Shown piece by piece: positions 1,234 through 30,494 of a stretch of DNA of 39,346 nucleotides. A program made the position numbers and the translations under genes. Origin of the DNA: Candidatus Desulfobacula maris. Its GTDB lineage: Bacteria > Desulfobacterota > Desulfobacteria > Desulfobacterales > Desulfobacteraceae. The stretch lies in contig JACNHV010000196.1 of the NCBI GenBank assembly GCA_014383445.1, positions 1-39,346 of the forward strand. The letters are read 5' to 3'. A model generated the notes under the pieces. That model had not been told where the DNA came from. It saw only the letters and a list, made by a program, of their open reading frames with translations, and did not search any database. Positions within the stretch are counted from its first letter, which is position 1; each line of letters starts with the position of its first letter.

Positions 1234-1248
1234 AAACAGGACTTTCAA

Positions 1249-2661: not shown

Positions 2662-2702
2662 TCCCTGAAGGCCTTGTTTACCTGTTTTCCCCTTTTTTTC
2701 GC

Positions 2703-2731
2703 TTGACAATACAAAAAAATTGTTCTTGGAT
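2703..2731 (+). promoter_or_regulatory. candidate sigma-70 promoter for the SUMF1-protein/transporter pair
   Basis: A consensus -35 box TTGACA (2703-2708) is followed after 17 bases by TTGGAT (2726-2731). Transcription would begin near 2738. That leaves too little leader for initiation at TTG 2746 and favours a translation start further downstream, after the AAGGAG at 2775-2780. Confidence 0.4.
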
Positions 2732-2745
2732 AGGAAATCATTAAG

Positions 2746-3642: not shown

Positions 3643-6600
3643 TGCGGGCAAAATTTCTGGGATTTTTAAAGCTGTATGAAGAAGAGGTCAATCTGCTCCT
3701 GTGGACAGCCGCCCTTTTGTTTATTATCCGAAGTTCAGGGATCATTCTGAACAATTATGCTGAAACAGCTTTTCTAAAGCGATATGGTGTTGAATATCTT
3801 CCCATAGTCAATATGCTCAATGCCGTCGCTACTTTTGTCATTACTGGATTTTTAACAGCCTTCATGGGAAAATTGCCCGGGGCAAGACTTCTAACCTATG
3901 TTTTTATTTTCTGCGGCATCAGTGTTACCCTGATTCGCATTCTTATTCCATTTGGTTTTGAACTTTTATATCCACTGCTTTTTATGCTCAAGAGCCAATT
4001 TGAACTGTTGCAGGCAATGCTGTTCTGGAATATATGCAATGATATTTTCAATACAAGGCAATCCAAAAGACTCTTTCCCCTGCTAACGGCCGGAGGTGTT
4101 ATCGGCCTTATCCTGGGGAGTTTTGGAACACCATATTTTGCAAAATTATTCCAGATGGATAATCTCTTATATCTGTATATGGGAACAACGCTTATAGGAG
4201 CTGCCATAGTTGAGGCCATGGGCCGCAGTTATCCCTCCATGGTTTTTTCAGAAAAAAGTAAAACCAATGGAAAAAAGAAGGATTCCATGATCCAGGAATT
4301 TAAAAAAGTCCTGCCCCTGATCAAGGATTCGGTTCTCATAAAGATAGTGCTGGTTCTGACCTTTATGCCCAACGTGGTTATTCCCATCATGAACTATCAG
4401 TTCAGTTATGCTGTAAATGACCAGTTTGCCAGCGAAGCCAGCATGATTCAATTTTTCGGATATTTCAGGGGAGGATTAAACGTGATAAGCCTGTTCATTC
4501 TCTTGTTTGTAGGAAGAATTTACGGGAAATGGGGCCTTCCCGTTGCCTTGATGTTTCATCCTTTTAATTATATAATTGCTTTTATGGCATTCCTTTTCCG
4601 TTTTGACTTTGTTTCAGCCATGTATGCCAGGCTTTCCACCAATATCATTCGAACCACCATCAATATGCCGGCAAATTCTATATTGATAGGGCTTTTTCCA
4701 AAATCCTATCGTGGGATGATCCGCCCCTTTCTCAGAGGTACTGTTGTCAGGCTGGCGCTTTTTGTGGGATCAGGCCTGATTCTGATATCTGGAAATTTTT
4801 TTCACCCAAAATATCTGACCCTGGTGGCTTTACCCTTTATGCTGGCCTGGATTGCCGCACCCTTTATCCTTAAAGCAAAATATCCCAAAATACTGATGGA
4901 TTTAATTTCCAACAACCTTCTGGATATCAAAAGCATGGAAAAAGAGGAACTGGGACAGATTTTCAAGGGAGATAAAATTTTGTCCCAGCTTAAACAGGCA
5001 TTCCTGTCTGCCAGGGGAAAAGATGCCGTATGGCATGCAAATTTATTGAAACTTTATTCCAGTCAGGATCTGGATAAGAATATCCTTGAGACTCTCGAAA
5101 ACCAGGATGAACAAACCAAGATAGCACTGATTAAAATGATTTCTCCCCAGAGCCTTGCTACATCCATGGAAAGTCTTGTGCGATTTTTAGATCCCCAAAA
5201 ACCAGAAGTCACCATTGCTATTTTAAAAATTTTCTGCCTCCAGGGTTCAAAATCCATAAAAAAAATTGATGTCTCTGTCACACCTTACATCAACAATCCG
5301 CATCCGGTCGTCAAGGGGTTTACAATAGCATGTCTCTATCAGGGAAACCCAAAAAAATATGGTCCCATGATTGATAGATGGATCGAATCAAATGATATAA
5401 ACGATTTACAGTCTGGAATTGTCAGTGCAGGATTGAGTGGGGAAAAAAAATATATAGATACCCTTCTTAAAATACTGCACAGGCAAGATATTGATCAGAT
5501 TATACCAGATATTATCATTGCCCTGTCCAGGCTTGAGGCCGGGGAATTGAATGCTGTCATCTATTCCTATTTTTCCCATGACCATGAAACAGTCAGGATG
5601 GCAGCTTTGGATGCCCTTGATATCAATGATGATTTTTCATTGAAAAAAGCCATTTCGCAATTGGCAGACAATTCAGACGAGATTCACGAATTTGCCATAA
5701 GAAAAATTAAAAAATCCGAATACCAAAATAACAAAATCATGGTTGAATCCCTTGGCATTCCAGGTACCAGGATTAGAAGAGGCCTTTTTGAGCTATTGGT
5801 AACCCTTGATATTAAAGAATTAGACGTGTTTATGTTTGCCAAAAAGAACCTGGATAAATGCTATGAATATCTTGCCATGAGTCAGAATCTTGAAAAACAA
5901 CCCCCGGGGAAAATGCGGGATCTTGCCATTGAACATTTAATTTATCAAAAAGAGCTTGTTCTTGAAAACATTATCCGTGTTCTTGCGATCCGGGATCAAA
6001 CAGGCAGGATGAAAACAGCATGGAGAGGAGTTTTTTCATCAGATACCAGCCAGAGGGCAAACGCCATTGAACTTTTAAATGATATCATGGACCGCCAGCT
6101 TTTTAATGCCATGCTGCCACTTCTGGAAAGCCCGACTCCGGCAATGGCTCTGGCAGAAGGCAAAAAAAAGGCAATAATCCCCAAATTCGATCCTGAAGGA
6201 AAACAGGTTTTTTCAAGTCTTCTATCTTCTGAAGACTGGGTGGATGTTATCATGGGACTTAATCTTACCCAGGGCATGCCCTCTCTGATTGAGGAAAATG
6301 GGATGCTCAGAAAATTGGAAAATTCAATCAATAAGAATATTGCAAAGGAAATGCAAATGATTCAGATGAAGAATAACAAACCGTCGAACGATTCCCAGAG
6401 GATAAGAGCAACCGAGATTTCCCTTGGTGAAACAATATTGCTTTTAAAGGAGATTGAAATCTTTTCCGGTCTCAGTCCAGCTGAGCTGGCAGCCATAGCA
6501 ACCGTTACAAAGGAACTTAATTATCCCGAAGATCAAACAGTTATCAAGCAGAACGATGTGGGCGAAACCGTGTTTCTGGTTATTGATGGTGAGGTGGAAG

Positions 6601-6875
6601 TCATCAAGGAACTGACAGATGGGGATGAAATGGTCCTCGCCATTATCGGACAGGGAGACTCTTTCGGGGAGATGGCCCTACTGGAAAATGAGCCGCGATC
6701 GGCAACCATTCGAACAACAAAACCATCTCGTTTTTTAATCATCCATCAACAGGAATTTAAGGAAACGGCAATGGAATACCCCGGGATTGCTCTGAAAATC
6801 TGCAAAGTTTTAAGCCGCCGTATCCGCCATCTCCACAGCGGTGTTAAAGACAGACAATCTTTCCTCCCTACTTAA
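3642..6875 (+). CDS. MFS/NTT-like transporter fused to HEAT repeats and a C-terminal cNMP-binding domain
   Basis: This 1077-residue protein has three parts. Residues ~1-420 are very hydrophobic with about a dozen membrane segments, resembling ATP/ADP-translocase-like (NTT) members of the major facilitator superfamily. Residues ~430-900 are helical HEAT-like repeats. Residues ~945-1060 form a Crp/Fnr-type cyclic-nucleotide-binding domain with the phosphate-binding cassette FGEMALLENEPRSATI; its Glu and Arg residues for cyclic phosphate and ribose contact are intact. cAMP binding is therefore plausible and would let the cytoplasmic domain gate or regulate the membrane part. The transported substrate is unknown. 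The start codon overlaps the preceding stop (TAATG), and the cyclase that could supply the ligand lies one gene upstream. The 3' end overlaps the convergent PP-loop gene by 8 bases. Confidence 0.87.
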   Translation: MRAKFLGFLKLYEEEVNLLLWTAALLFIIRSSGIILNNYAETAFLKRYGVEYLPIVNMLNAVATFVITGFLTAFMGKLPGARLLTYVFIFCGISVTLIRILIPFGFELLYPLLFMLKSQFELLQAMLFWNICNDIFNTRQSKRLFPLLTAGGVIGLILGSFGTPYFAKLFQMDNLLYLYMGTTLIGAAIVEAMGRSYPSMVFSEKSKTNGKKKDSMIQEFKKVLPLIKDSVLIKIVLVLTFMPNVVIPIMNYQFSYAVNDQFASEASMIQFFGYFRGGLNVISLFILLFVGRIYGKWGLPVALMFHPFNYIIAFMAFLFRFDFVSAMYARLSTNIIRTTINMPANSILIGLFPKSYRGMIRPFLRGTVVRLALFVGSGLILISGNFFHPKYLTLVALPFMLAWIAAPFILKAKYPKILMDLISNNLLDIKSMEKEELGQIFKGDKILSQLKQAFLSARGKDAVWHANLLKLYSSQDLDKNILETLENQDEQTKIALIKMISPQSLATSMESLVRFLDPQKPEVTIAILKIFCLQGSKSIKKIDVSVTPYINNPHPVVKGFTIACLYQGNPKKYGPMIDRWIESNDINDLQSGIVSAGLSGEKKYIDTLLKILHRQDIDQIIPDIIIALSRLEAGELNAVIYSYFSHDHETVRMAALDALDINDDFSLKKAISQLADNSDEIHEFAIRKIKKSEYQNNKIMVESLGIPGTRIRRGLFELLVTLDIKELDVFMFAKKNLDKCYEYLAMSQNLEKQPPGKMRDLAIEHLIYQKELVLENIIRVLAIRDQTGRMKTAWRGVFSSDTSQRANAIELLNDIMDRQLFNAMLPLLESPTPAMALAEGKKKAIIPKFDPEGKQVFSSLLSSEDWVDVIMGLNLTQGMPSLIEENGMLRKLENSINKNIAKEMQMIQMKNNKPSNDSQRIRATEISLGETILLLKEIEIFSGLSPAELAAIATVTKELNYPEDQTVIKQNDVGETVFLVIDGEVEVIKELTDGDEMVLAIIGQGDSFGEMALLENEPRSATIRTTKPSRFLIIHQQEFKETAMEYPGIALKICKVLSRRIRHLHSGVKDRQSFLPT

Positions 6876-7986
6876 TCTGTTTTTCAATTGCACTTGCCAG
6901 GTCATCTCTTCCCTGCTGGCGGAGCAGAGGAATCAAGGGCCTGTAAAATGGCGGCCGGACTCTGATGGTGATATCAAACTCAGAGATGTGCTCTGATGAA
7001 ATTTCGTTTTCAGCAAAAGCACGGGTTTTATCTAATAGTCCAAGGGCCGTCAATTCAGTCATGGTTCTAACACATTTTTCGCATTTACCGCAATTCAAGC
7101 GGTCAGGAACATTGGCAAGACAGACCCTGAAATTCTGAAATGCCACATCCCATTGAGAAACGATCTTTATTTTTTCGATCCTGGAAAGCTGGTAATCCCG
7201 GTGCCTTATCCGAAGATCCAAAGAAGAGTACTCAGGGTCAAGAAGCGGATGAGAGCCACAGGGGTGAAGGTTGGGTATGTCATAGGAAGATGAAATAAAA
7301 ACAAGATCCATTCTCCTGGTAAAAGAATGGGCAATGGCTGCCAGGACTGAACCAAAAAAGCTGTTCAGCCAAAGTTCCCGTTCATCGCAAAGATGCCGGA
7401 TATTGGTATAAACCGGTATCAAAGAAAGCTCAGCATCATTGGTAATTTTTGAAATAGCTTCCATTGCCCTGTCAAAAACAGGGTATTTCATCCCTCGTTC
7501 AACCACACCCCCTATATCAAATCCATGAAGAAAAAAACTGTCCTTAACATAGCCTGGATGGCTGCTGGAATAGTGGAGCCTGTTTAACCGCAAAGCAGCC
7601 AGTGAATCCATGCCGCCTGACATGAACATGCCGGCACCGGGTGTTTTGATCGGCATGATTTCAGACATTGCGGGCGCTTCTATTTTCAAAGGATGGTATT
7701 GTCTCTTTGTCCAGTCCGCAAGGATATGCATGGCTGTTTCAAGGCCTTCCTTTAAGAACGGACAAACTTTTGAATCCATCGCAATTCTTTTTTCCCCAAA
7801 ATGAATGGCCGGCAAAAGACAGCCCACCAGAAATGAATGTGGGTTGACATCAAAATATTCTTCATAGGCCCTGGAGGTTTTGATAAAAACCTCTTTATCC
7901 GGCTGGTTACAGTCCTCAAAACTAACAAGGGCCGAGGCCTTTACACTTTCTTCATCCTTAATCAGATTAAACTTGGAAATTTTCAT
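6868..7986 (-). CDS. PP-loop ATPase (adenine nucleotide alpha hydrolase family) with CxxCxxC cluster
   Basis: The signature SGGMDS at residues 123-128 is the PP-loop of ATP pyrophosphatases, enzymes that adenylate a carboxyl, carbonyl or RNA base. A cysteine set in NCGKCEKCVRT (C299, C302, C305) could bind zinc or an Fe-S cluster, as in QueC/TtuA-type relatives. The 372-residue length and the HGFD segment at residues 154-157 fit a poorly characterised QueC-like subgroup rather than QueC itself, and no queuosine genes are adjacent. The gene follows two leftward genes (GNAT fusion, RimK-like ATP-grasp). It is now separated from them by a palindromic element whose removal restores a ~19 bp spacing. 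I infer that it activates an intermediate in the same peptide-type pathway. The ribosome-binding site is poor. Confidence 0.8.
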   Translation of the reverse strand: MKISKFNLIKDEESVKASALVSFEDCNQPDKEVFIKTSRAYEEYFDVNPHSFLVGCLLPAIHFGEKRIAMDSKVCPFLKEGLETAMHILADWTKRQYHPLKIEAPAMSEIMPIKTPGAGMFMSGGMDSLAALRLNRLHYSSSHPGYVKDSFFLHGFDIGGVVERGMKYPVFDRAMEAISKITNDAELSLIPVYTNIRHLCDERELWLNSFFGSVLAAIAHSFTRRMDLVFISSSYDIPNLHPCGSHPLLDPEYSSLDLRIRHRDYQLSRIEKIKIVSQWDVAFQNFRVCLANVPDRLNCGKCEKCVRTMTELTALGLLDKTRAFAENEISSEHISEFDITIRVRPPFYRPLIPLLRQQGRDDLASAIEKQIK

Positions 7987-8006
7987 AATATAGTATAACC
8001 ATCTGT

Positions 8007-8173
8007 TATTTAGTGCCTGAACAAAAACCTTGTTCAGGCATGGGTTTAAGTTTTAGGTTTTAAGTTTTAACCTAAATCCTAAAACTTAAAACCTAAAACA
8101 ATCTCGAATAGTTACAAGTCTCTAACCAAAATTGAAAAACTATATTTCTAGTTTTTCGTTCAGGCACTATTTA
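8007..8173. mobile_element. MITE-like element with terminal inverted repeats and TATTTA flanking repeat
   Basis: The left end TAGTGCCTGAACAAAAAC (8011-8028) and the right end GTTTTTCGTTCAGGCACTA (8151-8169) are inverted repeats; the core is GTGCCTGAAC (8013-8022) against GTTCAGGCAC (8158-8167). The hexamer TATTTA occurs directly outside both ends (8007-8012 and 8168-8173), consistent with a target-site duplication. The inside is all palindrome: TGCCTGAACA/TGTTCAGGCA (8014-8040), a perfect 20 bp stem (8050-8099), and GAAAAACTA/TAGTTTTTC (8134-8157). There is no coding capacity. Removing one copy of the hexamer plus the element gives AAA TAA at the end of the upstream ATP-grasp gene and 19 bases to the PP-loop start, strong evidence of insertion into an operon. 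Confidence 0.75.
8050..8099. repeat. perfect 20 bp inverted repeat built of GTTTTAR heptads
   Basis: GTTTTAGGTTTTAAGTTTTA (8050-8069) is exactly reverse-complementary to 8080-8099, with a 10-base loop. Each arm is made of 7-base units of the form GTTTTAG/GTTTTAA. It forms the centre of the MITE-like element. In architecture, though not in base sequence, it resembles the heptad hairpin at 20055-20149. Confidence 0.85.
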
Positions 8174-9048
8174 GCACAGGTTGATGTAACATAGTCCAAC
8201 ATCTGCTTTGCAATATCCTTTCCCGTTGCCGCTTCAAGTCCTTTGAACCCAGGTGAATAATTCACTTCGATTATCAAGGGAGGGCAATCTTTTTCAACAA
8301 TAATATCAATGCCGGCAATTTCAAGATGACATGCTTTTGCGGCTTTAAGGGCAATTGAGGCACAGGATTCTGTCACTTCAACAGGACTGGCATGTCCTTT
8401 CTGGTGAATATTGGCTCTGAAATCCTGATAATCCGGCACAAGCGCCATGGCACCAGCTATTTTTCCGCCTATCACCAGCACCCTGATATCCGTACGTTCC
8501 TGTGGTGGAATAAACTGCTGGACAACAAGGCCTTTTTTGGCCTTAAGATTCTGGGTTAAAAAAGTCTGGGCTTCCATCTGACTATTGACCTTGATAACCC
8601 CATCCCCGCCCATTCCATCCACCTGCTTGACCACTACTGGAAATCCGCCCAATTGTTTCACCGCCAGTAAAAAAGATTCCTGTCTGGTGATAAAGAGTGT
8701 TGACGGGACAGGCAGACCTGATGAGACAAGGGTCTGAAGGGTGATAAATTGATTTCTGGCAATGGTAACGCCTTTAAGGCTGTTCACCAGGGGTGTGCCT
8801 GATTGCATAAACTGGCGCAAAAGGACCAGTCCATAATCCCCCATGGGAGATCCCTGCCGGGGCATGATGACATCCAGTTCTTTGTATATCTTTTCAATAA
8901 AAAATTCAAACCGGCTGTCTTTCAAAGAACATAAGATATCATAGGGGTTGATCAGAATGATCTCATTGCCTGAAGCTTCAGCCGCCTGTTTAAGGCGCAT
9001 GTTGGGATGAAAAGAAAAATCATTGACGGTTAGAACACCAATATTCAT
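8167..9048 (-). CDS. RimK-like ATP-grasp ligase
   Basis: This 293-residue protein belongs to the ATP-grasp superfamily, near RimK/alpha-glutamate ligases. MPRQGSP and DYGLVLLRQF occur near residues 82-102. The nucleotide-binding segment PVVVKQVDGMGGDGVIKV is near residues 138-155, DIRVLVIGG near 193, and the metal-binding end IIEVNYSPGF near 266. These enzymes join a carboxylate to an amine through an acyl-phosphate, often adding amino acids to a peptide or cofactor. Its start overlaps the stop of the GNAT fusion gene by four bases (ATGA), so the two are co-translated. The TAG stop is formed at the border of the MITE-like element; without the element the gene would end one base later in TAA. 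With the GshB-like gene across the divergent promoter, it supplies a second peptide-bond-forming activity to the cluster. The substrate is unknown. Confidence 0.87.
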   Translation of the reverse strand: MNIGVLTVNDFSFHPNMRLKQAAEASGNEIILINPYDILCSLKDSRFEFFIEKIYKELDVIMPRQGSPMGDYGLVLLRQFMQSGTPLVNSLKGVTIARNQFITLQTLVSSGLPVPSTLFITRQESFLLAVKQLGGFPVVVKQVDGMGGDGVIKVNSQMEAQTFLTQNLKAKKGLVVQQFIPPQERTDIRVLVIGGKIAGAMALVPDYQDFRANIHQKGHASPVEVTESCASIALKAAKACHLEIAGIDIIVEKDCPPLIIEVNYSPGFKGLEAATGKDIAKQMLDYVTSTCAK

Positions 9049-10859
9049 AATTTAAGTTCCCAGTCTTTTTCAATCATATTCTCGGGCATCCATATACCCA
9101 GTTTTTTGCCAACCTTTTCACTATAATACACAGCAATTTTTTTTGTTTTATTTTTTTTAGCGATCTTATGGGTGGCAGTATTGTCTTCACTGATAATAGA
9201 AAAAATCTTAAATTGTCCCGCTCTTTTTGTAAGCCCTTCCAATAGCCTGGAACCCACACCAAGCGCTCTGTATTCAGGTCTGACAGAGGTGTAGCCTCTT
9301 TCAACAAAATGATTAAAATCAAGTCCTGTAATGGTATTGAGTCTTTGGATAAACTCCTCTCTTGGATGCTTCAGGCTGGAATTGCCGACAATGATACCGT
9401 TTTCCTCTGCATATCCGATTAAATAGGCTCTTTCAAGGTTATACCGTACATATGCTGTATCCACAGATCCGCCAGCTTCCACCATTGCACAGATCTCATC
9501 TAAAAAACCCGGTAACAGCTCATCTGGTTTTCTAAAGTGAAAAGTGATACTGGTTCCCAATGAAATAAGGGTTTCATTGACCCGGTCTGCTCTCAGGCAG
9601 AATAGATTTTTTTTCCCATGAAACTTTAAATAAAGTAAAAGATGCGCAGGATCTGACAAAAATTTCCAGAAAGGTTCACCCGTCAGCTGTTTTACACCTG
9701 AATAGGCTTTCAAAGAAGGATCCATGCCAGTGAGATCTGATTTGCCATCTGACCCGTTGCCAATTAAATTTTCATAGGAATGGGCGATATTGGGATTTAA
9801 TGATATAAACCTGAGCCAATCGTTTTTTATGGCGCTACAGGTATGGTCTGTTAAGTTTACATGATTCCAGACACCTTGTTTGGAAAGATCCCATAATTTT
9901 TTTATCTTTGATGGTTCTTTTTTTTCAAGGCTTTTCCATTGGATCAAAGTCGTTCCCGAGGAAAAAAGGTTTTGGTATTCATTTTCTGCATACGTCTTGT
10001 CCAGGTCTTCCATATCCGCATGGACACCAAAAAAAAGTCCGGGAAGTTCCTTTTTTTTCAAAAAGAATTCAAAAGAGGAAAGCTGATTCTCAAAAAGGAA
10101 TCCTTTTGCTCCGTATTTTTCTTTTAATTTTGCCACAAAATCCCAGAAAAAAAACATATCCTTAAAAATACAGGTTTGAAGCGGCAGTATCAATTCCGGT
10201 GTCAGGTATTCTTTCAAGGGGAACATGGAAAAATCCGGTTCAACATGTGTATCTTGATTTTTACGTTTCCAGGTAGTGTTTATCCATTTTAAAAAAAGCG
10301 GCAGGTTTTGCAGAGAAAAACGGTGATCTGCAGCAGGGGTGTTATTTCCTCCATGATTATTGTTCTGCAGAACAATTGTCTGTATTTCAGGAAAAATACG
10401 TTTTATATAGTGAATAATTGTATTTGCTCCGGAAACCTGAGTTTCAGAGTCCAGAGCAAGGATGACCACCTTTGGAAGGACTTGTTTCAGCATCAAGTCG
10501 AGTTTTTCATGACAGAACGAAATCAAAAGCGGGTTTTGACTTTCATCAATAACACTGCCGGACAGAAAACTCCATCTGATCCTGGAGGGATAAAAAGCAG
10601 CAGAGTACAACAATAATAAATCATCTATCTGGTTTCTGGTTATAAGATATTTTTCAGGATCATAAAATGATTCTGACTTGAAGAAATCTATCACCTTTTT
10701 TGAAAAAATATGATCCACAAAAAACTCAAGGTTGGCATCGTATATTATAGTATTAATGGCTTCACGCAAAAAACATCCAGCTGCAAAGGCGCCGGTAGAA
10801 GATGGAATGGCAGGGCTTGTAAACGGCGGGGTGACGATCAGGACAGTTTTTTTATTCAT
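9045..10859 (-). CDS. pseudo-radical-SAM (B12-binding-like) protein fused to a GNAT acetyltransferase
   Basis: The ~604-residue protein has an N-terminus (VLIVTPPFTSPAIPSSTGAF, then YDANLEFF) like that of B12-binding-domain radical SAM enzymes. Around residues 200-260 it carries the family-like stretch FPLKEYLTPELILPLQT and later YGAKGFLFE. The segment between, where the Cx4Cx2C cluster motif normally sits, is missing, so it should not bind the catalytic [4Fe-4S] cluster. The last ~90 residues form a GNAT domain with acetyl-CoA loop RPEYRALGVGSRLLEGL. I infer an N-acyltransferase riding on an inactivated radical-SAM scaffold. An upstream in-frame start at 11000 is rejected because it would lie upstream of the predicted promoter and inside the divergent gene. 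ATG 10868 and 10886 are other options. The gene is first in the leftward operon. Confidence 0.7.
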   Translation of the reverse strand: MNKKTVLIVTPPFTSPAIPSSTGAFAAGCFLREAINTIIYDANLEFFVDHIFSKKVIDFFKSESFYDPEKYLITRNQIDDLLLLYSAAFYPSRIRWSFLSGSVIDESQNPLLISFCHEKLDLMLKQVLPKVVILALDSETQVSGANTIIHYIKRIFPEIQTIVLQNNNHGGNNTPAADHRFSLQNLPLFLKWINTTWKRKNQDTHVEPDFSMFPLKEYLTPELILPLQTCIFKDMFFFWDFVAKLKEKYGAKGFLFENQLSSFEFFLKKKELPGLFFGVHADMEDLDKTYAENEYQNLFSSGTTLIQWKSLEKKEPSKIKKLWDLSKQGVWNHVNLTDHTCSAIKNDWLRFISLNPNIAHSYENLIGNGSDGKSDLTGMDPSLKAYSGVKQLTGEPFWKFLSDPAHLLLYLKFHGKKNLFCLRADRVNETLISLGTSITFHFRKPDELLPGFLDEICAMVEAGGSVDTAYVRYNLERAYLIGYAEENGIIVGNSSLKHPREEFIQRLNTITGLDFNHFVERGYTSVRPEYRALGVGSRLLEGLTKRAGQFKIFSIISEDNTATHKIAKKNKTKKIAVYYSEKVGKKLGIWMPENMIEKDWELKL

Positions 10860-10906
10860 GGCTTTCATTGTTTTGTTATGATACATTATTAATCTTAAAC
10901 TTTTAA

Positions 10907-10935
10907 TATATATAGTACTGGGAGGATTTAAACAA
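10907..10935 (-). promoter_or_regulatory. candidate leftward promoter in the divergent region
   Basis: On the - strand, TTGTTT (10935-10930) is followed after 17 bases by TATATA (10912-10907), placing the transcription start near 10900. The only gene-free stretch shared by the leftward and rightward operons is ~75 bp (10869-10941), so both promoters must lie here. The rightward -10 could be TATAGT at 10911-10916, but its -35 is poor. Overlapping divergent promoters would allow coordinated control. Confidence 0.4.
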
Positions 10936-10941
10936 GCAATC

Positions 10942-11916
10942 ATGAAAATTGCCTTTTTAATGGACAATCTAAGAAAGATCAATCCGGTATTGGAAACCAC
11001 AAGTTATCTGATGTATGAATGCAACCAGAGGGGACATACAGTGTTTTTTCTGGAACCCCACGATGTCTATATCCGTGGAAATGAAGTTGTTGCAAGGATG
11101 CGAAATATATCAGTAAAACCTGGCCTTACCATTAATGATTACTGGCAGGTATTGATTGAATGCCTGAACAAGGATGACCTGATATTTGAAACCATTACAG
11201 ATCTGGATGCCCTGTTTTTACGAAAAGACCCCCCCATAAGTTATCAGGTCATGGAATTCTTAGGTCCCGTCAGCGACAAGATTTTCATGGTCAACGATAC
11301 AATGGGACAAATAAAGGGTAATAGTAAGGTCTACGCATTGAACTTCCCAGATATTATTCCTGAAACGCATATTTCCAGAGATCCCTACAGAATTAGAAAA
11401 ATCATTGATACTTTTGGCGGAGACATGGTTATAAAACCCCTTCAGGGACACGGAGGACACGGCGTGATCAAGGTGAGCAACCGGGATCAGGAAAATCTGA
11501 ATTCATTGATCAATTATTATATTGATTCAAGCAAACCCTATCCGGAACGTCACCCTACCCTGGTTCAGGAATATTTAGAAAGTGTCAAATATAATGGGGA
11601 TGTCAGAATTCTGCTCTTAAACGGGGAGATATTAGGGGCAATGGGCAGAAAATCGCTCTATGGTGACTTCAGGACAAATGTCCATGCCGGTGCAAAGGTA
11701 TTTAAACATGAAATCACCCACAAAGAACGGGAAATATGTGCAACCTTGAAAGATCAATTAATAAAGGATGGCTTGTATTTTGTCGGGATTGATATTATCG
11801 GTGACAAACTTGTTGAGATTAACTGCGTCAGCCCCGGAGGCATACCCCGGATCAATCAATTGGATAACGTAAAACTGGAAGTCAAGGTCATTGATTTTAT
11901 TGAGCAGCAGATTTAA
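10942..11916 (+). CDS. glutathione synthetase-like (GshB family) ATP-grasp peptide ligase
   Basis: The 324-residue product follows E. coli GshB over its length. It has MKIAFLMD at the N-terminus, FLRKDPP near residue 92, DMVIKPLQGHGGHGV near 157, QEYLESVKYNGDVRILL near 208, and the metal/ATP end FVGIDIIGDKLVEINCVSP near 285. GshB joins gamma-glutamylcysteine and glycine. Here no gshA is nearby, and the segment after EIN (CVSPGGIPRINQLD) differs from E. coli's, so a different dipeptide or tripeptide product is possible. The ribosome-binding site GGGAGG (10920-10925) is 16 bases from ATG, unusually far. This is the first gene of the rightward operon, 12 bp before the transporter lipoprotein gene, tying the ligase product to the peptide transporter. 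Confidence 0.87.
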   Translation: MKIAFLMDNLRKINPVLETTSYLMYECNQRGHTVFFLEPHDVYIRGNEVVARMRNISVKPGLTINDYWQVLIECLNKDDLIFETITDLDALFLRKDPPISYQVMEFLGPVSDKIFMVNDTMGQIKGNSKVYALNFPDIIPETHISRDPYRIRKIIDTFGGDMVIKPLQGHGGHGVIKVSNRDQENLNSLINYYIDSSKPYPERHPTLVQEYLESVKYNGDVRILLLNGEILGAMGRKSLYGDFRTNVHAGAKVFKHEITHKEREICATLKDQLIKDGLYFVGIDIIGDKLVEINCVSPGGIPRINQLDNVKLEVKVIDFIEQQI

Positions 11917-11928
11917 AGGTCCGGCAAA

Positions 11929-13701
11929 ATGAGCTTCAAAAAGAATCTGGATAGATTATTTAAAAGCAATTTAAAACGAGTCTTATTTACCGGGCTTTTG
12001 ATATTAATTTTAGGCATGGTTTTATCCTGTCAGAAAAAAGAGGAAGAAGCACTGCTTAAAATAGGGTTGCCTGAAGAGCCCAAGTCATTTAATGTGTGGT
12101 TGGCAAGTGATAGCAACTCACGTAAAATTCTATCCCAGATTTACCAGCCTTTATATACTCGAGATCCCAAAACATTAAAAATAATCCCCTGGCTTGCCCA
12201 AAAAGACCCTGTCTTTAATAAAGAAGAGCTGTCTTATACAATAAAATTAAGGCCTGCAAAATGGTCTGATGGAACCGACTTTACATCTGATGATGTTGTA
12301 TTTACCAGAAAATTGTTTCTTGATTTTCAAATTCCCGGGTATGCCAGTAAATGGAAGGTGATAAAAAAACTTGATGTCATTGATGAACACACACTTATTT
12401 TCTATTTAAAAGAGCCATCTGCAATTTTCCTTTCCCGGGTATTAACCACTCCCATTGTATCAAAAAAAGAATGGGAACAAATTGCAGCCAATGCCAAAAA
12501 AACAGAAAAACCTTTACGTACCCTGCAGAACCATGTCATTGAAAAACCGCTGGGTACAGGCCCTTTTATGCTGGCTGAATACAAAAAAGGGGCCTATGTT
12601 TACATGAAAAAGAACCCTTATTTTTTTGGTACGGGGAAAAAAATTGGCGATTATATTCTCGGACCTTATGTGGACAGCATCCTTTTTAAAATATACGGGA
12701 CCAGTGATGTTGCAATACTGGCCCTTAAAAAGGGTGATATCGATATGTTCTGGTGGGAAATCCAGCCCGGGTACATAAAAGATCTTGAAGCACAACCAGA
12801 TATTGAAGTATTTCTGAATGAAAAAAACGCTTTGTATTTCCTGGGGTTTAACCTGAGAAAACCACCCTTTGATGATAAAATGTTACGACAGGCCATAGCC
12901 ACCCTTATTAACAAAGAATTCATTCTTACAAGAATTCTTCAAAATTATGGCTCGCCCATGCACTCTATTATACCATCTGGAAATACCTTCTGGTACAATC
13001 CCGATGTCCGCCGATATGATGTGGGGCAAAAAGATGAAGACCGATTCAAAACAGCCCATGAGATGCTTAAAAAAGCAGGTTATACATGGGATAAAGAACC
13101 TGTGATATCAGATAATGGCATTGTTGAGGGGCAGGGAATTCGTCTTCCCGATGGAAAACCAATGGATAATTTTGTAATCCTTACACCCCCTGCTGATTAT
13201 GATCCCAAAAGGGCCTTTGCCGGTATGATGATCCAGGAATGGCTCAGAAAAATAGGCATGCCCGCCTTTGCAAGACCCATGTCCTTTAACTCACTATTGG
13301 ACAGGGTAAAAGGAAAACATGATTTTGATGCCTTTATTTTAGGCTATGGCAAGCTTAATCTTGATCCAGACTATCTAAGGACATTTTTCGATTCAAAAAA
13401 TGATAAACCCAGGGGCTGGAACATGAGCGGATACAACAATCCTGATTTTGATAAGATTGCTAAAAAGCAGCTTAGTATTATTGATGAAGAAGAACGGAAA
13501 AAATTGATCTGGGAAATGCAGGAAATTCTCATGGAGGATATCCCATATATCCCTTTATATAATCCCCATATTTTAGAAGCTGTTTCCAAAAAAAGATTTG
13601 AAGGATGGGTTGAAGAAGTAGACGGTATAGGCAATATCTGGTCACTATGCATGGTAAAGAAAAATAATGGATATTCTAACAACATGGATAAAGGTAAATG
13701 A
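11929..13701 (+). CDS. peptide ABC transporter substrate-binding lipoprotein (SBP family 5)
   Basis: A 590-residue extracytoplasmic solute-binding protein of the DppA/OppA/NikA family. The N-terminus has a hydrophobic signal and lipobox GMVLSC (cysteine near residue 35), so it should be lipid-anchored facing the periplasm. Family features include LKIGLPEEPKSFNVW, LRPAKWSDGTDFTSDDVVFT, PLGTGPFMLAEYKKG near residue 204, RQAIATLINKE near 321, and a C-terminal YIPLYNP. The family captures di- and oligopeptides, nickel complexes or opine-like compounds, and the ligand cannot be read from sequence. The gene overlaps the first permease by four bases (ATGA) and follows the GshB-like ligase with an AAAGG ribosome-binding site. 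I infer that the ligand is the product, precursor or metal complex of this cluster's peptide. Confidence 0.92.
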   Translation: MSFKKNLDRLFKSNLKRVLFTGLLILILGMVLSCQKKEEEALLKIGLPEEPKSFNVWLASDSNSRKILSQIYQPLYTRDPKTLKIIPWLAQKDPVFNKEELSYTIKLRPAKWSDGTDFTSDDVVFTRKLFLDFQIPGYASKWKVIKKLDVIDEHTLIFYLKEPSAIFLSRVLTTPIVSKKEWEQIAANAKKTEKPLRTLQNHVIEKPLGTGPFMLAEYKKGAYVYMKKNPYFFGTGKKIGDYILGPYVDSILFKIYGTSDVAILALKKGDIDMFWWEIQPGYIKDLEAQPDIEVFLNEKNALYFLGFNLRKPPFDDKMLRQAIATLINKEFILTRILQNYGSPMHSIIPSGNTFWYNPDVRRYDVGQKDEDRFKTAHEMLKKAGYTWDKEPVISDNGIVEGQGIRLPDGKPMDNFVILTPPADYDPKRAFAGMMIQEWLRKIGMPAFARPMSFNSLLDRVKGKHDFDAFILGYGKLNLDPDYLRTFFDSKNDKPRGWNMSGYNNPDFDKIAKKQLSIIDEEERKKLIWEMQEILMEDIPYIPLYNPHILEAVSKKRFEGWVEEVDGIGNIWSLCMVKKNNGYSNNMDKGK

Positions 13702-14672
13702 AAACAAAAAAAATTATTTTCAATAAATTGATTGAAATAACCATCCTTTTCTTTATTATCCTGACGGTTTTGTTTTTCCTTTTCCGGGCCGCTCCCGGTG
13801 ATCCTGTCTCAAGAATGGTTGACCCAACACTGACTCCCGAGGATATCCAGCTTCTCATCGCACAGATGGGGCTTGATGAACCTGCGTGGAAACAATATAT
13901 AATTTATATAAAAAATTTTTTTTCGGGCAATCTGGGCCATTCTTTTCATTATGGAGAACCCGTCAGCAATATAATACTGGACAGAATGCCCTGCACCATT
14001 CTTCTTTTTACCACATCCACGCTTTTAGCCGCATTTGCGGGAGTATTTTTAGGCAAAATCGCAGCCTGGAAAAAGGGATCAGCAATTGATAATGTTTTAT
14101 CAATAGGCGCCCTTCTCTGTCATACCCTTTTTATCCCATGGTTTGCCCTGCTTGTTTTATGGGCTTTTGCCTATAAGCTTGGCTGGTTTCCTCTGGGTGG
14201 AATTATTTCCCCGGAATTATGGATCAATGATACATCTTTTTTTATAAAAATGCTGGATGTGTTGCACCATATGTTTTTGCCTTTGTTAACACTTTTTTTC
14301 ATTCACCTTGGCTCCTACCTTTTACTCATGCGATCCAGTATGCTGGGTGTATTAAAAGAAGAATATATTATTACGGCAAGGGCAAAAGGCCTTTCCGACA
14401 AGGTAATACGAAATAAACACGCTGCCAGGAATGCTGCACTGCCCGTAATTACCAGCGTAGGCTTAAGTCTTGCTTTTTCCATAAATGGCGGCGCTTTAAC
14501 AGAACAGATTTTTACCTGGCCAGGCATAGGCAGAGAGCTTATTTTTGCCGTAAGCAACAATGACTATCCTCTTGCCCAGGCCTGTTTTTTACTGATAACG
14601 GCTGTGGTGCTTATCGCCAACCTGATTGTGGATCTCTTGTATGCATATATGGACCCGAGGATCAGCTACTGA
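13698..14672 (+). CDS. peptide ABC transporter permease, DppB/OppB type
   Basis: A 324-residue inner-membrane permease with about six membrane segments. It has the classic N-terminal feature of this subunit, FLFRAAPGDPVSRMVDPTLT near residues 28-47, and the cytoplasmic EAA-type loop near YIITARAKGLSDKVIRNKHA (residues ~223-242) that contacts the ATPase. It pairs with the next gene to form the transmembrane channel of a PepT-family importer. The start overlaps the binding-protein stop (ATGA) and the stop overlaps the next start (TGATG), so the subunits are translationally coupled. The loop between helices carrying the HMFLPLLTLFFIHLG segment also matches the family. Import direction is inferred from the partner binding protein. 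Confidence 0.92.
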   Translation: MKTKKIIFNKLIEITILFFIILTVLFFLFRAAPGDPVSRMVDPTLTPEDIQLLIAQMGLDEPAWKQYIIYIKNFFSGNLGHSFHYGEPVSNIILDRMPCTILLFTTSTLLAAFAGVFLGKIAAWKKGSAIDNVLSIGALLCHTLFIPWFALLVLWAFAYKLGWFPLGGIISPELWINDTSFFIKMLDVLHHMFLPLLTLFFIHLGSYLLLMRSSMLGVLKEEYIITARAKGLSDKVIRNKHAARNAALPVITSVGLSLAFSINGGALTEQIFTWPGIGRELIFAVSNNDYPLAQACFLLITAVVLIANLIVDLLYAYMDPRISY

Positions 14673-15589
14673 TGAAAAAAATAGAAAAAAAACCAGAGCA
14701 TAGAAATCATTATATCGAGAGATTTACAAAATCCTGGGCCATATTTATAAAAAACCCCATGGGAAAAACAGGCCTTATTATTTTATCGGCTTTCATGCTC
14801 ATGGCCATTGCAAGTTTTTTCGTTCCGCTTTTAGGTCCTGTTTATCACCCCATGACAGGTGCTGATCCAAACATAACATATTCAACCGGCCCCAGTCTTC
14901 AGCACTGGCTTGGAACGGATTTTATTGGAAGAGATCTTTTTGTGCAACTGCTGGAAGGTGCGAAAGTTGCCTTCATTGTAGGTCTTTCCTGTGCCTTCAT
15001 AAGTGTTGTTCTTGGCACTGCAATAGGGATGATATCCGGATATGCAGGCGGAATAGTTGACACAATCCTCATGAGGATCGCTGATATATTCATGGTGCTG
15101 CCTTCCCTTGTAATTCTTCTGATCCTGGCCTCATTATGGGAGTTGAGTATCTGGGTCATTATTTTTATCATTGCAATCATGAGATGGCCATCTGTATCAC
15201 GAATTATCCGTTCCCAGACCCTGTCTTTGAAATCAAGGCCGTTTATTGAAGCCTCCAGAGTAGCGGGTGCATCGAATTTCAGAATCATTTTTAAACATAT
15301 TATGCCCAATGTTCTTCCATTGGCATTCTTGTATATGACATTCAGGGTAACATCAGCCATACTGGTAGAAGCAGCCCTGTCTTTTTTGGGATTTGGCGAT
15401 CCAGGACAGGTCAGCTGGGGCATGATGCTTCAATGGGTTTGGAGCTCAGGCCATATGTTCCAGGCACCATACTGGCTTTTACCTCCTGGTATTTGCATCT
15501 CTTTGCTGACCCTATCATTTTACATGCTGGGCCGTGCAATGGATGAAGTTCTTGATCCAAGACTCAGGAAGGAAGAAGAGGAAGAATAA
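14672..15589 (+). CDS. peptide ABC transporter permease, DppC/OppC type
   Basis: The second permease subunit, 305 residues. A short cytoplasmic N-terminus is followed by the first helix and the family motif LGTDFIGRDLFVQLLEGAKV near residues 84-103. The EAA loop follows in FIEASRVAGASNFRIIFKHIMPN near 190-212, and the C-terminus ends in DEVLDPRLR as in most DppC proteins. It forms a heterodimer with the preceding permease. It abuts the first ATPase gene with no intergenic base (TAA then ATG). Nothing appears broken or unusual. The ligand is set mainly by the binding protein, so specificity cannot be predicted here. Confidence 0.92.
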   Translation: MKKIEKKPEHRNHYIERFTKSWAIFIKNPMGKTGLIILSAFMLMAIASFFVPLLGPVYHPMTGADPNITYSTGPSLQHWLGTDFIGRDLFVQLLEGAKVAFIVGLSCAFISVVLGTAIGMISGYAGGIVDTILMRIADIFMVLPSLVILLILASLWELSIWVIIFIIAIMRWPSVSRIIRSQTLSLKSRPFIEASRVAGASNFRIIFKHIMPNVLPLAFLYMTFRVTSAILVEAALSFLGFGDPGQVSWGMMLQWVWSSGHMFQAPYWLLPPGICISLLTLSFYMLGRAMDEVLDPRLRKEEEEE

Positions 15590-16567
15590 ATGGCATTACT
15601 AAAGGTTGAAAATTTAAGTGTCGGCTATAAAAGCAAAAAAGGCATGGTTAATGCTGTCAATAACATATCCTTTTCAATAGAACAAGGCCGATCTCTGGGA
15701 TTTGTTGGAGAATCCGGATGTGGAAAAACCACAATTGGAATGACACTTATGGGTCTTTTGCCTGAAAATGCTTCCATTCTTAAGGGAGACATCATTTTTA
15801 ACGGCAATAACCTTGCCAGCTTTAATGATGAAAAATGGAGGGCGTTCCGAGGCAAAGAAATTTCCATGATATTCCAGGCTGCAATGAATGCCTTGAATCC
15901 GGTCATCCGGGTGGATGAACAGATTGCAGAAGTGATACAGATCCATAATCCTGCGATGTCTAAATCAGATGTTTCCAACCAGGTAAAAAAAATATTCAGC
16001 CTGGTTGAAATTCCTGAAGATCGTTTAAGAGATTTTCCCCATCAATACAGTGGCGGCATGAAACAAAGAGCCATTATCGCCATGGCGCTTGCATGCGCCC
16101 CAAAACTGATTATAGCTGATGAGCCTACAACAGCCCTGGATGTAATTGTCCAGGACCAGATCTTAAAAGAGATCAAAAAGATTCAAAAAGCCTTGAATAC
16201 CAGTGTTATTTTTATTTCCCATGATATTGCCGTGGTTGCAGATGTCTGCAAAGACATCTGTGTCATGTATGGCGGACACATAGTGGAAAAAGGCACTAGA
16301 GAAGAGGTGTTTAAATCTCCGCGACACCCTTATACCAAAACTCTATTGGGATCATACCTGACGTTGGACTCATATGAAGATATCAATGTTCCTGAGATAC
16401 GTGAAGCTCCTGATTTGATTACAATGACAGGAGGATGCCGTTTCTCAGCCAATTGTAATTGCAAATCTCAAAAGTGCCAATGCCAAACCCCTGAATGGGT
16501 GAACCTTTCTTCAACACATCAGGCTCTTTGTTTCGAAGAGTTATTAAATAAGGACAAAAATGACTGA
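15590..16567 (+). CDS. peptide ABC transporter ATPase, DppD/OppD type
   Basis: A 325-residue ATP-binding subunit. It has Walker A GESGCGKTT (residues ~41-49), Q-loop IFQAAMNALNP near 93, signature YSGGMKQR near 152, Walker B LIIADEPTTALD near 173, and a switch histidine in FISHD. The C-terminal extension typical of DppD/OppD holds four or more cysteines (GCRFSANCNCKSQKCQC), matching the region that binds an Fe-S cluster in some family members; this version is unusually Cys-dense. It energises uptake with the next gene's product, whose start overlaps this stop by eight bases. Confidence 0.92.
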   Translation: MALLKVENLSVGYKSKKGMVNAVNNISFSIEQGRSLGFVGESGCGKTTIGMTLMGLLPENASILKGDIIFNGNNLASFNDEKWRAFRGKEISMIFQAAMNALNPVIRVDEQIAEVIQIHNPAMSKSDVSNQVKKIFSLVEIPEDRLRDFPHQYSGGMKQRAIIAMALACAPKLIIADEPTTALDVIVQDQILKEIKKIQKALNTSVIFISHDIAVVADVCKDICVMYGGHIVEKGTREEVFKSPRHPYTKTLLGSYLTLDSYEDINVPEIREAPDLITMTGGCRFSANCNCKSQKCQCQTPEWVNLSSTHQALCFEELLNKDKND

Positions 16568-17384
16568 GGAACAAAATATACAAACGCCCATCATTGAATT
16601 AAATGGTGTGACAAAAGAATATAGCTCAAAAAAAAACTTTTTATCAAAAGGCGAAACCAATATTATCGCCCTGAATAATATAAGTCTGGCAATACAAAAA
16701 AAAGAGATCTTTGGCCTTGTCGGCCAGAGCGGCAGTGGCAAAACAACGATAGGAAGGCTTTTGGTAAAGCTTGAAGAACCAACCAAAGGGATAATAAAGC
16801 TTAATGGCAAGCCAACAAACAAGCTTAAAGGAAAGGCCCTGAAACACTATCGGTCAAAGGTTCAGATGATTTTCCAAGACCCTTATCAATCCCTGAATCC
16901 TCATCTTTCTATTGCTGAAACCATTATAGAACCACTGGTTGTCAACAAGATCGGCAACGCCCTCACCCGGCGCGATAAAGTGCTGGAAACCCTTGAAATT
17001 GCGGGCCTGTCTCCAGGAGAAGATTTTTTTCACCGATACCCTCATCAATTGAGTGGTGGCCAACGGCAGCGGGTCGCCGTGGCACGTGCCATTATCCTGG
17101 ATCCAGACTTTATTGTGGCAGATGAACCCACTTCAATGCTGGATGCCACCATTGCCATCCAGCTTTTTCAATTGCTTTTGGATATTAGAAAAAAATTTAA
17201 AATGACCTTTCTTTTTATTACGCACAACCTGGCTGCAGCAAGATACCTGTGTGATAGGATTGCGGTAATTCACAATGGGGTTATCGTTGAAACCGGAAGT
17301 GCGGACAAGGTGATTAAAGATCCTCAACATCCCTACACCAAAAAACTGATACTGGCTCAACCCGGATTTAATTTTAAAAATTAA
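16560..17384 (+). CDS. peptide ABC transporter ATPase, DppF/OppF type
   Basis: The second ATP-binding subunit, 274 residues. It contains Walker A GQSGSGKTT near residues 55-63, Q-loop MIFQDPYQSLNP near 102, signature LSGGQRQR near 163, Walker B FIVADEPTSMLD near 184, and FITHN. It stops soon after HPYTKKLILAQP, so it lacks the cysteine-containing C-terminal extension present in the partner subunit and in many OppF proteins. Together with DppD-, DppB- and DppC-like proteins it completes a five-part importer. The radical SAM gene begins 41 bp downstream in the same direction and is probably co-transcribed. Confidence 0.92.
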   Translation: MTEEQNIQTPIIELNGVTKEYSSKKNFLSKGETNIIALNNISLAIQKKEIFGLVGQSGSGKTTIGRLLVKLEEPTKGIIKLNGKPTNKLKGKALKHYRSKVQMIFQDPYQSLNPHLSIAETIIEPLVVNKIGNALTRRDKVLETLEIAGLSPGEDFFHRYPHQLSGGQRQRVAVARAIILDPDFIVADEPTSMLDATIAIQLFQLLLDIRKKFKMTFLFITHNLAAARYLCDRIAVIHNGVIVETGSADKVIKDPQHPYTKKLILAQPGFNFKN

Positions 17385-17425
17385 ATTGCCAATCTAAAAT
17401 AAAAAACAACAATGGATATATCAAA

Positions 17426-18658
17426 ATGAAAGATACCTTGTTCATACAGTTTTATAACAAAACAAAAAGCGGATGGTTTGACCTTAGCAATGGATTTTCA
17501 GACACCTGGGACCTGTGTAATGGAAAAGGTGACTTTTACTGGATGCTGCATGAAGAAGACAATGACAAGTGGTATTTGGAAGAAACCTATCAGGATATTC
17601 CCCTTCCCATACAAAAGGGAGTAGTCTATGTCAGCGCCAGTTATTTCAACCACTTATATCAGGCCTACACCTGGTCAATCCAACATCCTGATATTCAGTT
17701 CATTGTCGGCGGACCTGTGGCTTCTGAACGAAGCATCGGCAACAACAAATGGAATTCCGTTCACTTCAAGGTAGAAAAAGAGCTGCCGCCCAATCTGATA
17801 CTCACAGGCCAAAGTGTTGAAAGCCTCTTCAAAGTGCCAGAGTTTTCAGGGAAGTGGAAACTTAAAATGCCAGAATCAATTCCTGAGAACAGCAAAATTT
17901 ATTTTTCCTATACCCTTGAAAATCAATGCTATTGGAAAAAATGCCCTTTCTGCTCCATTGCCCAGCATTGTTCGGAACATTTCAGAAAACGCAAAAACCT
18001 GGACCTTGAATTCAAAAATCTTGACTTTAAAGGAAACAAAATAGTCCGTCTAAACACAGGCTCTATTACACCGGAACACATCAAAGCCATTCTTCCAAAC
18101 CTGCCCATTGGGAATGATATTGAATACCGGTTCTTTATGCGGGCAGCTAAAGCAGAGACCAATGCCCTAAAACAGGCGATTAAAAACTTTGACAAAAAAA
18201 TTCCAAACTGCACATTGGGTTTTGGTATTGAATTTCCCTCGGACCGGATGTGGAAATATCTGGATAAAGGCACCATAATGAGCGAGGTCGTTGAAACCCT
18301 TGAATTTTGCATGCAAGCAGGCTTTAAGGTCAATGCCAATGTTATTCTCGGGTGGAACAATCTTATAGACCAGGACCTGAAAGACCTGGAAAAATTCATG
18401 GACAGCCTTTCAGGACATACCGTCACAACCCTGCAGCTTAGATGGCTGTTTGCCCACCCATACACAAAAATATACGATACCTATGACGGAGTAGATGACA
18501 CCATTCGATTGGGACCGTTTAATTGTGGATTTAATGTAAAAGTGGATGCCGAACAAAAAGAATTAAACCTTGCAGCAGCCGAAATTATCAAGGAAAAATG
18601 TGATCTTAAGCACATAAAACTGGAAGGCTATAAAAACTTAAGAAAAGGTCAACTTTAG
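17426..18658 (+). CDS. radical SAM protein with Cx4Cx2C cluster motif and B12-binding-like N-terminus
   Basis: A 410-residue enzyme. NQCYWKKCPFCS places cysteines at 168, 173 and 176 (Cx4Cx2C), a spacing seen in some B12-domain radical SAM families whose motif reads GCYWGKCxFC. Later motifs support the radical-SAM barrel: GFGIEFPSDRMWKYLDKGT near residues 267-285, and the glycine-rich ANVILGW. The first ~150 residues include FIVGGPVAS, resembling a cobalamin-binding Rossmann domain, but no clear DxHxxG cobalamin motif is visible, so B12 use is doubtful. It is the last gene of the rightward operon, behind the peptide transporter. With the ATP-grasp, PP-loop and GNAT genes it suggests radical modification of a small peptide. 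The reaction is unknown. The pseudo-radical-SAM protein at 9045-10859 may be its partner. Confidence 0.8.
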   Translation: MKDTLFIQFYNKTKSGWFDLSNGFSDTWDLCNGKGDFYWMLHEEDNDKWYLEETYQDIPLPIQKGVVYVSASYFNHLYQAYTWSIQHPDIQFIVGGPVASERSIGNNKWNSVHFKVEKELPPNLILTGQSVESLFKVPEFSGKWKLKMPESIPENSKIYFSYTLENQCYWKKCPFCSIAQHCSEHFRKRKNLDLEFKNLDFKGNKIVRLNTGSITPEHIKAILPNLPIGNDIEYRFFMRAAKAETNALKQAIKNFDKKIPNCTLGFGIEFPSDRMWKYLDKGTIMSEVVETLEFCMQAGFKVNANVILGWNNLIDQDLKDLEKFMDSLSGHTVTTLQLRWLFAHPYTKIYDTYDGVDDTIRLGPFNCGFNVKVDAEQKELNLAAAEIIKEKCDLKHIKLEGYKNLRKGQL

Positions 18659-22445: not shown

Positions 22446-22830
22446 TCAGGGTTTTAGAAAAAAATCAAAAAGGAGACTTATGCACTCTTTGACCGGTGCT
22501 GTTGAGTTCACTATTTTCATATTCAGTAGTGCCCCTTCCCAGGCATTCCAGATGAATTCTGTTAAGGCATCAGCTGAAATATCACCCCTGATGGTTCCCA
22601 TGGTTTGACCTTGACTGATCTGTTTTGAAACTCGATCTTTCCAGACAGTCATAGCATGATGCATTTTTTGCCGACATAGATCACTGGCCTCACTGATCTC
22701 TGCCGCCAAATTTCCTATGAGACAACCCGTTCTCACTTCACTTTGCTCATGATGGGAAATGATCATCTCAAGACTGTATCTCAATGCCTCAAACGGATCC
22801 TTTGGGCCGCTTTTGAGTAAATCATCCCAA
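22446..22830 (-). pseudogene. TetR-family regulator, C-terminal fragment (NemR-like) fused to peptidase fragment
   Basis: The last ~125 codons of a 241-codon open frame encode the ligand-binding half of a TetR regulator: DPFEALRYSLEMIISHHEQ, the characteristic TGCLIGNLAAEIS, QGQTMGTIRGDISADALTEFIWNAWEGALLNMKI, and a normal C-terminus. The helix-turn-helix half is absent, replaced in frame by an M28 peptidase fragment. NemR-like regulators commonly sit beside ene-reductase genes, and here an old-yellow-enzyme gene lies directly downstream. The junction is placed only approximately, around codon 100-118 of the open frame. The product, if made, could not bind DNA. Confidence 0.75.
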
Positions 22831-30466: not shown

Positions 30467-30494
30467 TTTCTTTATTCCTTTATCAAAATTATTG

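Follow-up and report, generated by a model that had tools for sequence, protein, structure and literature searches.

What do two divergent operons in the genome of Candidatus Desulfobacula maris make, and do they act as one system? We analyzed a window of 39,346 nucleotides, the whole stretch at positions 1 to 39,346 of contig JACNHV010000196.1 (assembly GCA_014383445.1). An initial annotation had listed ten genes in it, all of which we found, open and at the same coordinates: a PP-loop ATPase, two ATP-grasp ligases, a GNAT acyltransferase, a radical SAM protein, and the five parts of a peptide-type importer. We found that the system is real, conserved, larger than first noted, and without an assigned pathway. 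Sulfate-reducing bacteria share a set of about 13 genes, inherited together, that probably makes a small, capped, peptide-like molecule, transports it through the cell membrane, and recovers it or a building block from outside. Bacteria of this group play a major part in marine sediments.

Co-occurrence and extent within the family

We counted genes in a family sample of 86 genomes; the counts are raw and ignore kinship. The GNAT gene (9045 to 10859, minus strand) and the PP-loop gene (6868 to 7986, minus strand) have identical genome sets, 36 of the 86; the GNAT matches in G075 and G084 are fragments only. The GshB-like ATP-grasp ligase gene (10942 to 11916, plus strand), counted at 69% identity or more and leaving out one 39% match in G043, is present in the same 36 genomes and in G074, an assembly that is 81% complete and in 1180 contigs. 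The same 36 plus G074 carry an upstream membrane protein gene (3642 to 6875, plus strand) that encodes an NTT (TLC) transporter-like domain, HEAT repeats, and a cyclic-nucleotide-binding domain (cNBD). The radical SAM gene (17426 to 18658, plus strand) was found in 31 genomes, which are 30 of the 36 carriers and G074.

The initial annotation had proposed that the two divergent operons are one functional system and had named homologues lying mostly apart as grounds for giving that up. In the 36 genomes with both genes, the PP-loop and GshB-like genes are within 30 kb of each other in 18, 1.49 to 2.37 Mb apart on one contig in 3, and on different contigs in 15, where contig breaks may hide some linkage. 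Thus, the operons are apart or not seen together in 18 of the 36, yet both are always present. The proposal is not refuted, and the shared genomes support one functional system even where the operons are far apart. Within genus g1 (10 of 26 genomes) and genus g4 (5 of 19), exactly the same genomes have PP-loop and GshB, even though four of the five from g4 have the two genes more than 1.4 Mb apart or not on one contig. Chance would hardly produce such patchy presence of identical gene sets in two genera. We consider it extremely unlikely that two or more unrelated operons became adjacent by accident. That explanation would account for the half of the carriers in which they are not seen together, but operons that are apart are still in the same genomes, and they are together again in other families.

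The system also extends further upstream than first thought. We clustered the open frames of 40 fetched loci and the window (41 sequences) into families and found that the 40 most widespread include the ten genes listed above, the NTT-HEAT-cNBD gene, a class III nucleotidyl cyclase gene (1195 to 2661, plus strand), and a PvdO/FGE-like gene whose start codon is uncertain (2746 to 3642, plus strand). Because the last three are among the most widespread neighbor families, we place the start of the unit at 1195. The unit therefore runs from 1195 to 18658 and includes the three genes at 1195 to 6875; the end at 18658 is the one first given, and the start at 6868 is superseded. The gap shared by the divergent operons, which is presumably a promoter region, is there as described (10860 to 10941), although it measures 82 bp and not about 75 bp.

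Of the same 40 families, one is a GAF-domain protein, found in 10 of the 41 sequences, and one is a second type of cyclase, found in 3. Other families track the local synteny of one or a few genera: L21/L27/Obg genes, NrfD-type, carboxylase, and transposase genes, genes for an ABC exporter and an efflux protein of the outer membrane (4 of 41), and a glycosyltransferase (3 of 41). The GAF-domain protein, of about 790 residues, is encoded near cyclase, radical SAM, or GshB genes in some genera (L040, L049, L117, L120, L121, L123 to L125, L132, and L134) and is absent from the window. The exporter and efflux genes are near the system in four genomes (L044, L120, L121, and L124) and could be a route for product export.

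A smaller core in other families

The system spans the order and reaches other families of the phylum. Across the order, the PP-loop marker was found in 82 of 389 genomes, of which 32 belong to the window's family. Outside the family, we examined 48 PP-loop loci of 47 genomes, with many of the contigs short, and found RimK in 43, GNAT in 38, NTT and PvdO-like genes in 20 each, GshB in 18, the binding protein in 16, and radical SAM in 4. In three loci from another family of the order (L231, L242, and L243), the PP-loop, RimK, and GNAT genes are divergent from the GshB and importer genes, as in the window; this two-operon layout lacks the radical SAM gene. Cyclase homologues are present in 29 and PvdO-like homologues in 37 of the PP-loop-bearing loci (n = 80), and of 84 PP-loop matches, 67 have a RimK gene no more than 600 bp upstream.

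Phylum-wide, the PP-loop profile matched 11 of 395 genomes, the source genome included. Seven of the other ten have GNAT together with the PP-loop gene. Only the NTT, GNAT, PP-loop, and GshB genes are kept together in four genomes (G352, G392, and G310, from one family, and G261, from another). G219 and G390 have NTT, RimK, and GshB genes as well as GNAT and PP-loop; in G390, which belongs to yet another family, the NTT gene, the GNAT-RimK-PP-loop trio, GshB, and an importer fit into 12 kb, and GshB shares the strand of the trio. RimK and NTT are present in G400, where GshB was not seen up to the contig end. G246 has tandem diverged PP-loop genes alone, and in G358 and G453 an NTT gene is next to a diverged PP-loop gene. 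The gene set of the initial annotation therefore needs revision: it missed the three upstream genes, and its importer, RimK, and radical SAM genes are outside the smallest core.

In L157 and L159, an NTT-HEAT-cNBD gene directly precedes a diverged PP-loop gene, which in L157 is followed by a radical SAM gene. This arrangement is perhaps a third version of the system.

Predicted chemistry and possible products

No named pathway for this gene set was found in the family libraries or in the open-license literature that we searched, as had been stated at the outset. The best explanation is one conserved small-molecule system that makes an N-acylated, ligase-built, peptide-like metabolite. We hold this tentatively, as nearly as apt to be right as wrong, and we infer each of its reactions from the predicted enzymes. 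A cytosolic GNAT enzyme would acylate an amino group, the ATP-grasp ligases would couple amino-acid-like units, and the PP-loop enzyme would use ATP to activate the carboxyl end, most simply to give an amide. The product would be a short N-acylated peptide-like metabolite, made without the ribosome or GshA. This keeps the ligation, acylation, and carboxylate-activation logic first proposed, which is reasonable; adenylation by the PP-loop protein, as first proposed, is only one possible outcome.

The GNAT domain is C-terminal (~175 residues). Its RxxGxG motif is intact, and the predicted model (pLDDT 83.8) matches acetyltransferases in the PDB. The preceding ~430 residues are a variable alpha/beta extension that is missing in many homologues, and an ATG start at 10859 suits most relatives better than a GTG at 11000. 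The initial annotation had read this half as a radical SAM scaffold without a cluster, an ancestry that is unproven. The extension has no C-x(2-5)-C-x2-C motif in nine of nine long homologues, a profile comparison between it and the active radical SAM protein gave nothing, and the 50 Foldseek matches listed for the whole model each are or contain an acetyltransferase. For want of a Cys motif or a profile match, the pseudo-radical-SAM ancestry is unsupported, and judging by the alignment, the N-terminal half is a dispensable extension. Contigs labeled Desulfobacula sp., uncultured proteobacterium, and Proteobacteria bacterium contain matches to the GNAT gene at 68 to 93% identity; Desulfobacula is a genus of the Desulfobacteraceae.

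Both ATP-grasp ligases have intact metal and ATP residues. The RimK-family protein (8167 to 9048, minus strand) scored 194.6 bits against TIGR00768, above the cut-off of 143.4, and its K141, D248, E261, and N263, which we take to be the ATP-grasp metal/ATP residues, are near-invariant in 21 sequences. The GshB-like protein matches Escherichia coli GshB (1gsa) along its length (5.2e-31). Every one of the 36 family carriers has its gene, as do the smallest clusters, and RimK is also present in most loci of the order.

The resemblance of one ligase to GshB raises glutathione synthesis as a candidate. The protein fell just under the PRK05246 cut-off (266.7 versus 272 bits) and under that of TIGR01380 (242.1 versus 299.05). 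Of the two GshA families, PF04107 was found in the 86 family genomes only in G077, a noncarrier, and PF04262 in none. We rejected a glutathione route for the 36 family carriers because neither GshA family matched in them and the GshB equivalog cut-offs were missed. As these carriers show no GshA, the system also bears on which non-glutathione small molecules these anaerobes make.

The RimK family raises a different possibility, since its founder modifies ribosomal protein S6: a RimK-style tail addition, together with acetylation, of a ribosomal or other protein. In several family genera (L040, L041, L043 to L051, and L053 to L055), L21/L27/Obg genes do lie at most about 10 kb from the trio. 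However, we did not see this location in the window or in the other mapped loci of its genus (L036, L037, L052, and L132). The RimK-family protein also missed the cut-off of the S6-ligase equivalog PRK10446 (152.3 versus 331), and protein modification leaves the importer and the NTT protein unexplained. We consider it very unlikely.

In the PP-loop protein, an SGGMDS motif and four cysteines (C289, C299, C302, and C305) are unchanged across all 20 aligned sequences, the window included. The protein matched no Pfam or NCBIfam family at an E value of 0.01 or less. Its predicted model is poor (pLDDT 68), Foldseek gave no match at an E value of 0.001 or less and only weak TilS matches, and a profile search of PDB sequences gave nothing meaningful.

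The closest known parallel to the three activities is synthesis of N-acetylglutaminylglutamine amide (NAGGN), an acyl-dipeptide amide. The smallest core has the three activities of the NAGGN pathway (GNAT, ATP-grasp, and PP-loop) plus a membrane protein; thus, a short N-acylated peptide whose carboxyl end is activated, and perhaps amidated, would be the simplest guess for the product. In a NAGGN cluster that we saw in L166, a GNAT/ATP-grasp protein is beside an asparagine-synthetase-type PP-loop protein, and the third gene presumably encodes an M42 peptidase. Here, in contrast, the activities are split over different proteins, the PP-loop protein belongs to another family, without a Pfam match, and the NTT, importer, cyclase, PvdO-like, and radical SAM genes are additional.

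The product could then be an N-acetylated dipeptide amide that stays inside the cell as a compatible solute similar to NAGGN, and the importer would scavenge osmolytes. The match of the three activities to NAGGN genes seen in the same family and the composition of the smallest core, one of each activity with a membrane protein, are consistent with this. The GNAT alignment, however, showed no profile similarity to the NAGGN synthetase of G017. TIGR03103 was not found in the cluster, where the RimK-family protein scored 35.7 against a cut-off of 569. Among the family genomes, TIGR03103 is above its cut-off in 13 of 36 carriers, 10 of them in genus g8, and in 12 of 50 noncarriers, a distribution that, with kinship ignored, shows no clear replacement or pairing. 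A periplasmic PvdO-like protein and a cyclase would also be unexpected for an osmolyte. We regard a compatible solute as unlikely. NAGGN synthesis itself, or its replacement, was rejected on the distribution and the lack of GNAT similarity.

Several observations count against a single peptide-building system. The co-occurrence counts take no account of kinship. The importer and RimK are absent from the four minimal clusters, and the radical SAM gene is missing from G020, G024, G056, and G082, each at least 96% complete; part of the scheme is therefore optional. Seven of the 80 PP-loop loci show no GNAT, RimK, GshB, or NTT gene; three of these are on contigs of at most 7.1 kb, and four have longer flanks (L156, L158, L214, and L217) and PP-loop proteins that are diverged (29 to 44%). 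Relatives of the PP-loop protein also occur in other settings, including polysaccharide genes, in plasmid records, of which we examined the contexts in 6 of 17 that matched. A Nostoc plasmid (L160) has two such relatives, at 15001 to 16176 (41%) and 29451 to 30626 (39%). Relatives at 25 to 30% identity in Gloeothece, Gemmobacter, Priestia, and Azospirillum adjoin a polysaccharide pyruvyl transferase gene or sit at most two genes from one, and the one in Priestia is among glycosyltransferase genes. The Paracoccus relative has no polysaccharide pyruvyl transferase neighbor. From these neighborhoods, a glycan is a possible substrate of the PP-loop protein.

An envelope or exopolysaccharide modification could be built on such a substrate: the PP-loop protein would amidate or aminoacylate a glycan carboxylate, GNAT would acylate it, and the NTT and PvdO-like proteins would act at the membrane. 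Besides the relatives just described, the glycosyltransferase gene near the diverged PP-loop copy of L158 and the glycosyltransferase family near the system (the 3 of 41 sequences are from two genomes) favor this. Otherwise, we found no glycosyltransferase, flippase, or pyruvyl transferase among the 27 recurrent noncore families that were scanned with Pfam, and two peptide-ligase-type ATP-grasps with a peptide-type importer suit a peptide better. We consider a glycan product decidedly unlikely and continue to favor the N-acylated, peptide-like metabolite.

Two further observations concern the PP-loop relatives. One of the two in Nostoc is inside a polysaccharide cluster, adjoining a flippase gene, and is annotated as hypothetical. 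L156, L214, and L217 have tandem pairs of the diverged protein (39 to 44%) with the other core genes absent, and in L158 the glycosyltransferase gene is close by.

Membrane-associated genes, gaps, and flanks

The NTT protein scored above the Pfam cut-offs for TLC (28.1 versus 21 bits) and cNMP_binding (77.2 versus 27.5) and below that for HEAT_2 (24.1 versus 27.7), in the order NTT, HEAT, cNBD. It had no match in plasmids at an E value of 1e-20 or less. Proteins with this domain order have been described, with the role of the fusion unknown, and it has been suggested that cyclase-made cAMP might act on their cNBD (Major et al. 2017, PMC5381601). Here, a subset of them is tied to a cyclase and a biosynthetic set, a kind of cluster that the parts of PMC5381601 available to us do not describe. 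The cyclase has two N-terminal transmembrane-like segments and matched Pfam Guanylate_cyc at 102 bits. The presence of a cyclase with a cNBD suggests cyclic-nucleotide control. We infer that the NTT-HEAT-cNBD protein, gated by a cyclic nucleotide, would move the product or a partner through the inner membrane. The orphan NTT-HEAT-cNBD family and the Pfam-less PP-loop protein are now tied to a concrete biosynthetic set and so can be tested.

The PvdO-like protein (Pfam FGE-sulfatase, 171 bits) has PvdO (5hha) as its best PDB match (1.6e-20) and closest solved relative. PvdO takes part in pyoverdine maturation. An N-terminal hydrophobic segment is common to both proteins, and ours is predicted to be periplasmic. 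Four cysteines are invariant in 15 of 15 sequences. Position 272, which aligns to what we take to be the second catalytic Cys of FGE, is Cys in 2 of 15, the window included, and the position of the presumed first catalytic Cys aligns to Lys in the window protein. We therefore rejected a formylglycine-generating enzyme, as the protein does not have both catalytic cysteines. The hydrophobic segment and the four invariant cysteines point to a periplasmic step, in which the protein would act on the product, and hence to a product that crosses the membrane. No other pyoverdine genes were recognized in the window, although no search was aimed at them.

The importer is encoded in one operon that ends at 17384, all on the plus strand: a family 5 solute-binding protein (11929 to 13701; SBP_bac_5, 231.9 bits), permeases B (13698 to 14672) and C (14672 to 15589), both BPD_transp_1, and two ATPases (15590 to 16567, ABC_tran and oligo_HPY; 16560 to 17384, ABC_tran). 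Opp/Dpp/Nik importers have the same five parts; here, a ligase heads the operon. Among the matches listed, no substrate-specific equivalog cut-off was reached. We scored gene order in 100 loci, which hold 48 GshB matches with L237 counted twice; in 38 of these, the first core gene to follow is that of the binding protein. The other ten comprise four at a locus edge, four minimal clusters, one with NTT between, and one with the importer on the opposite strand. Because the GshB-like gene heads the importer operon, imported material may be the substrate of the ligase. The oligopeptide-type importer would return the product or supply the GshB-like ligase with a building block.

The radical SAM protein scored 20.7 bits against Pfam Radical_SAM, under the cut-off of 29.5. 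It had been described as active looking. Its three cysteines are invariant in 14 of 14 sequences; their spacing is CX4CX2C, not the textbook CX3CX2C. This protein would add a lineage-specific modification.

A more specific reading would be a new class of acyl-peptides in sulfate-reducing bacteria (a signal or metallophore), secreted, matured in the periplasm, and re-imported, whose movement is gated by cyclic nucleotides via the NTT-HEAT-cNBD protein. It is doubtful, though with a real chance of being right; if true, the orphan NTT-HEAT-cNBD transporter family would gain its first function. The earlier suggestion of a link to a metallophore or thiol was not borne out, as the carriers have no GshA and the 40 top families, of which 27 noncore families were Pfam scanned, have no TonB-type receptor.

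A ribosomal precursor had been discounted because no precursor frame was visible in the gaps. The gaps between cluster genes are at most 84 bp, with the sole exception of the 180-bp gap between RimK and PP-loop. That gap, from the stop codon of RimK to the start of PP-loop, is only 22 to 31 bp in four close relatives; here it holds an element of about 153 bp (8014 to 8166) bounded by terminal inverted repeats (TGCCTGAAC). The element looks like a MITE-type repeat; more than half its length is matched at 12 further places in the genome, and at 8 of these the match covers at least 138 bases. Since the gaps are either 84 bp or less or filled by a repeat, a precursor-peptide gene longer than about 28 codons could not fit between the genes. 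The claim holds for a precursor of ordinary size, and a very short, overlapping, or distant one may exist.

Rfam and tRNA scans of the window were empty. Four cluster proteins had no match in PADLOC and, except for one RimK-type match, only weak ones in PHROGs. Downstream of the unit, a TetR gene (18689) is followed by two oxidoreductase genes; none of the three had a match when used as a query in the loci searched. Upstream of the cyclase, 963 to 1181 encodes a small protein that, by eye, resembles a heavy-metal-associated domain; in 72 loci it had matches only in the close relatives L003, L006, and L036. Further downstream, 22446 to 23171 encodes a TetR-type regulator whose N-terminal part also matches Peptidase_M28 (Pfam, 42.6 versus a cut-off of 21.3 bits).

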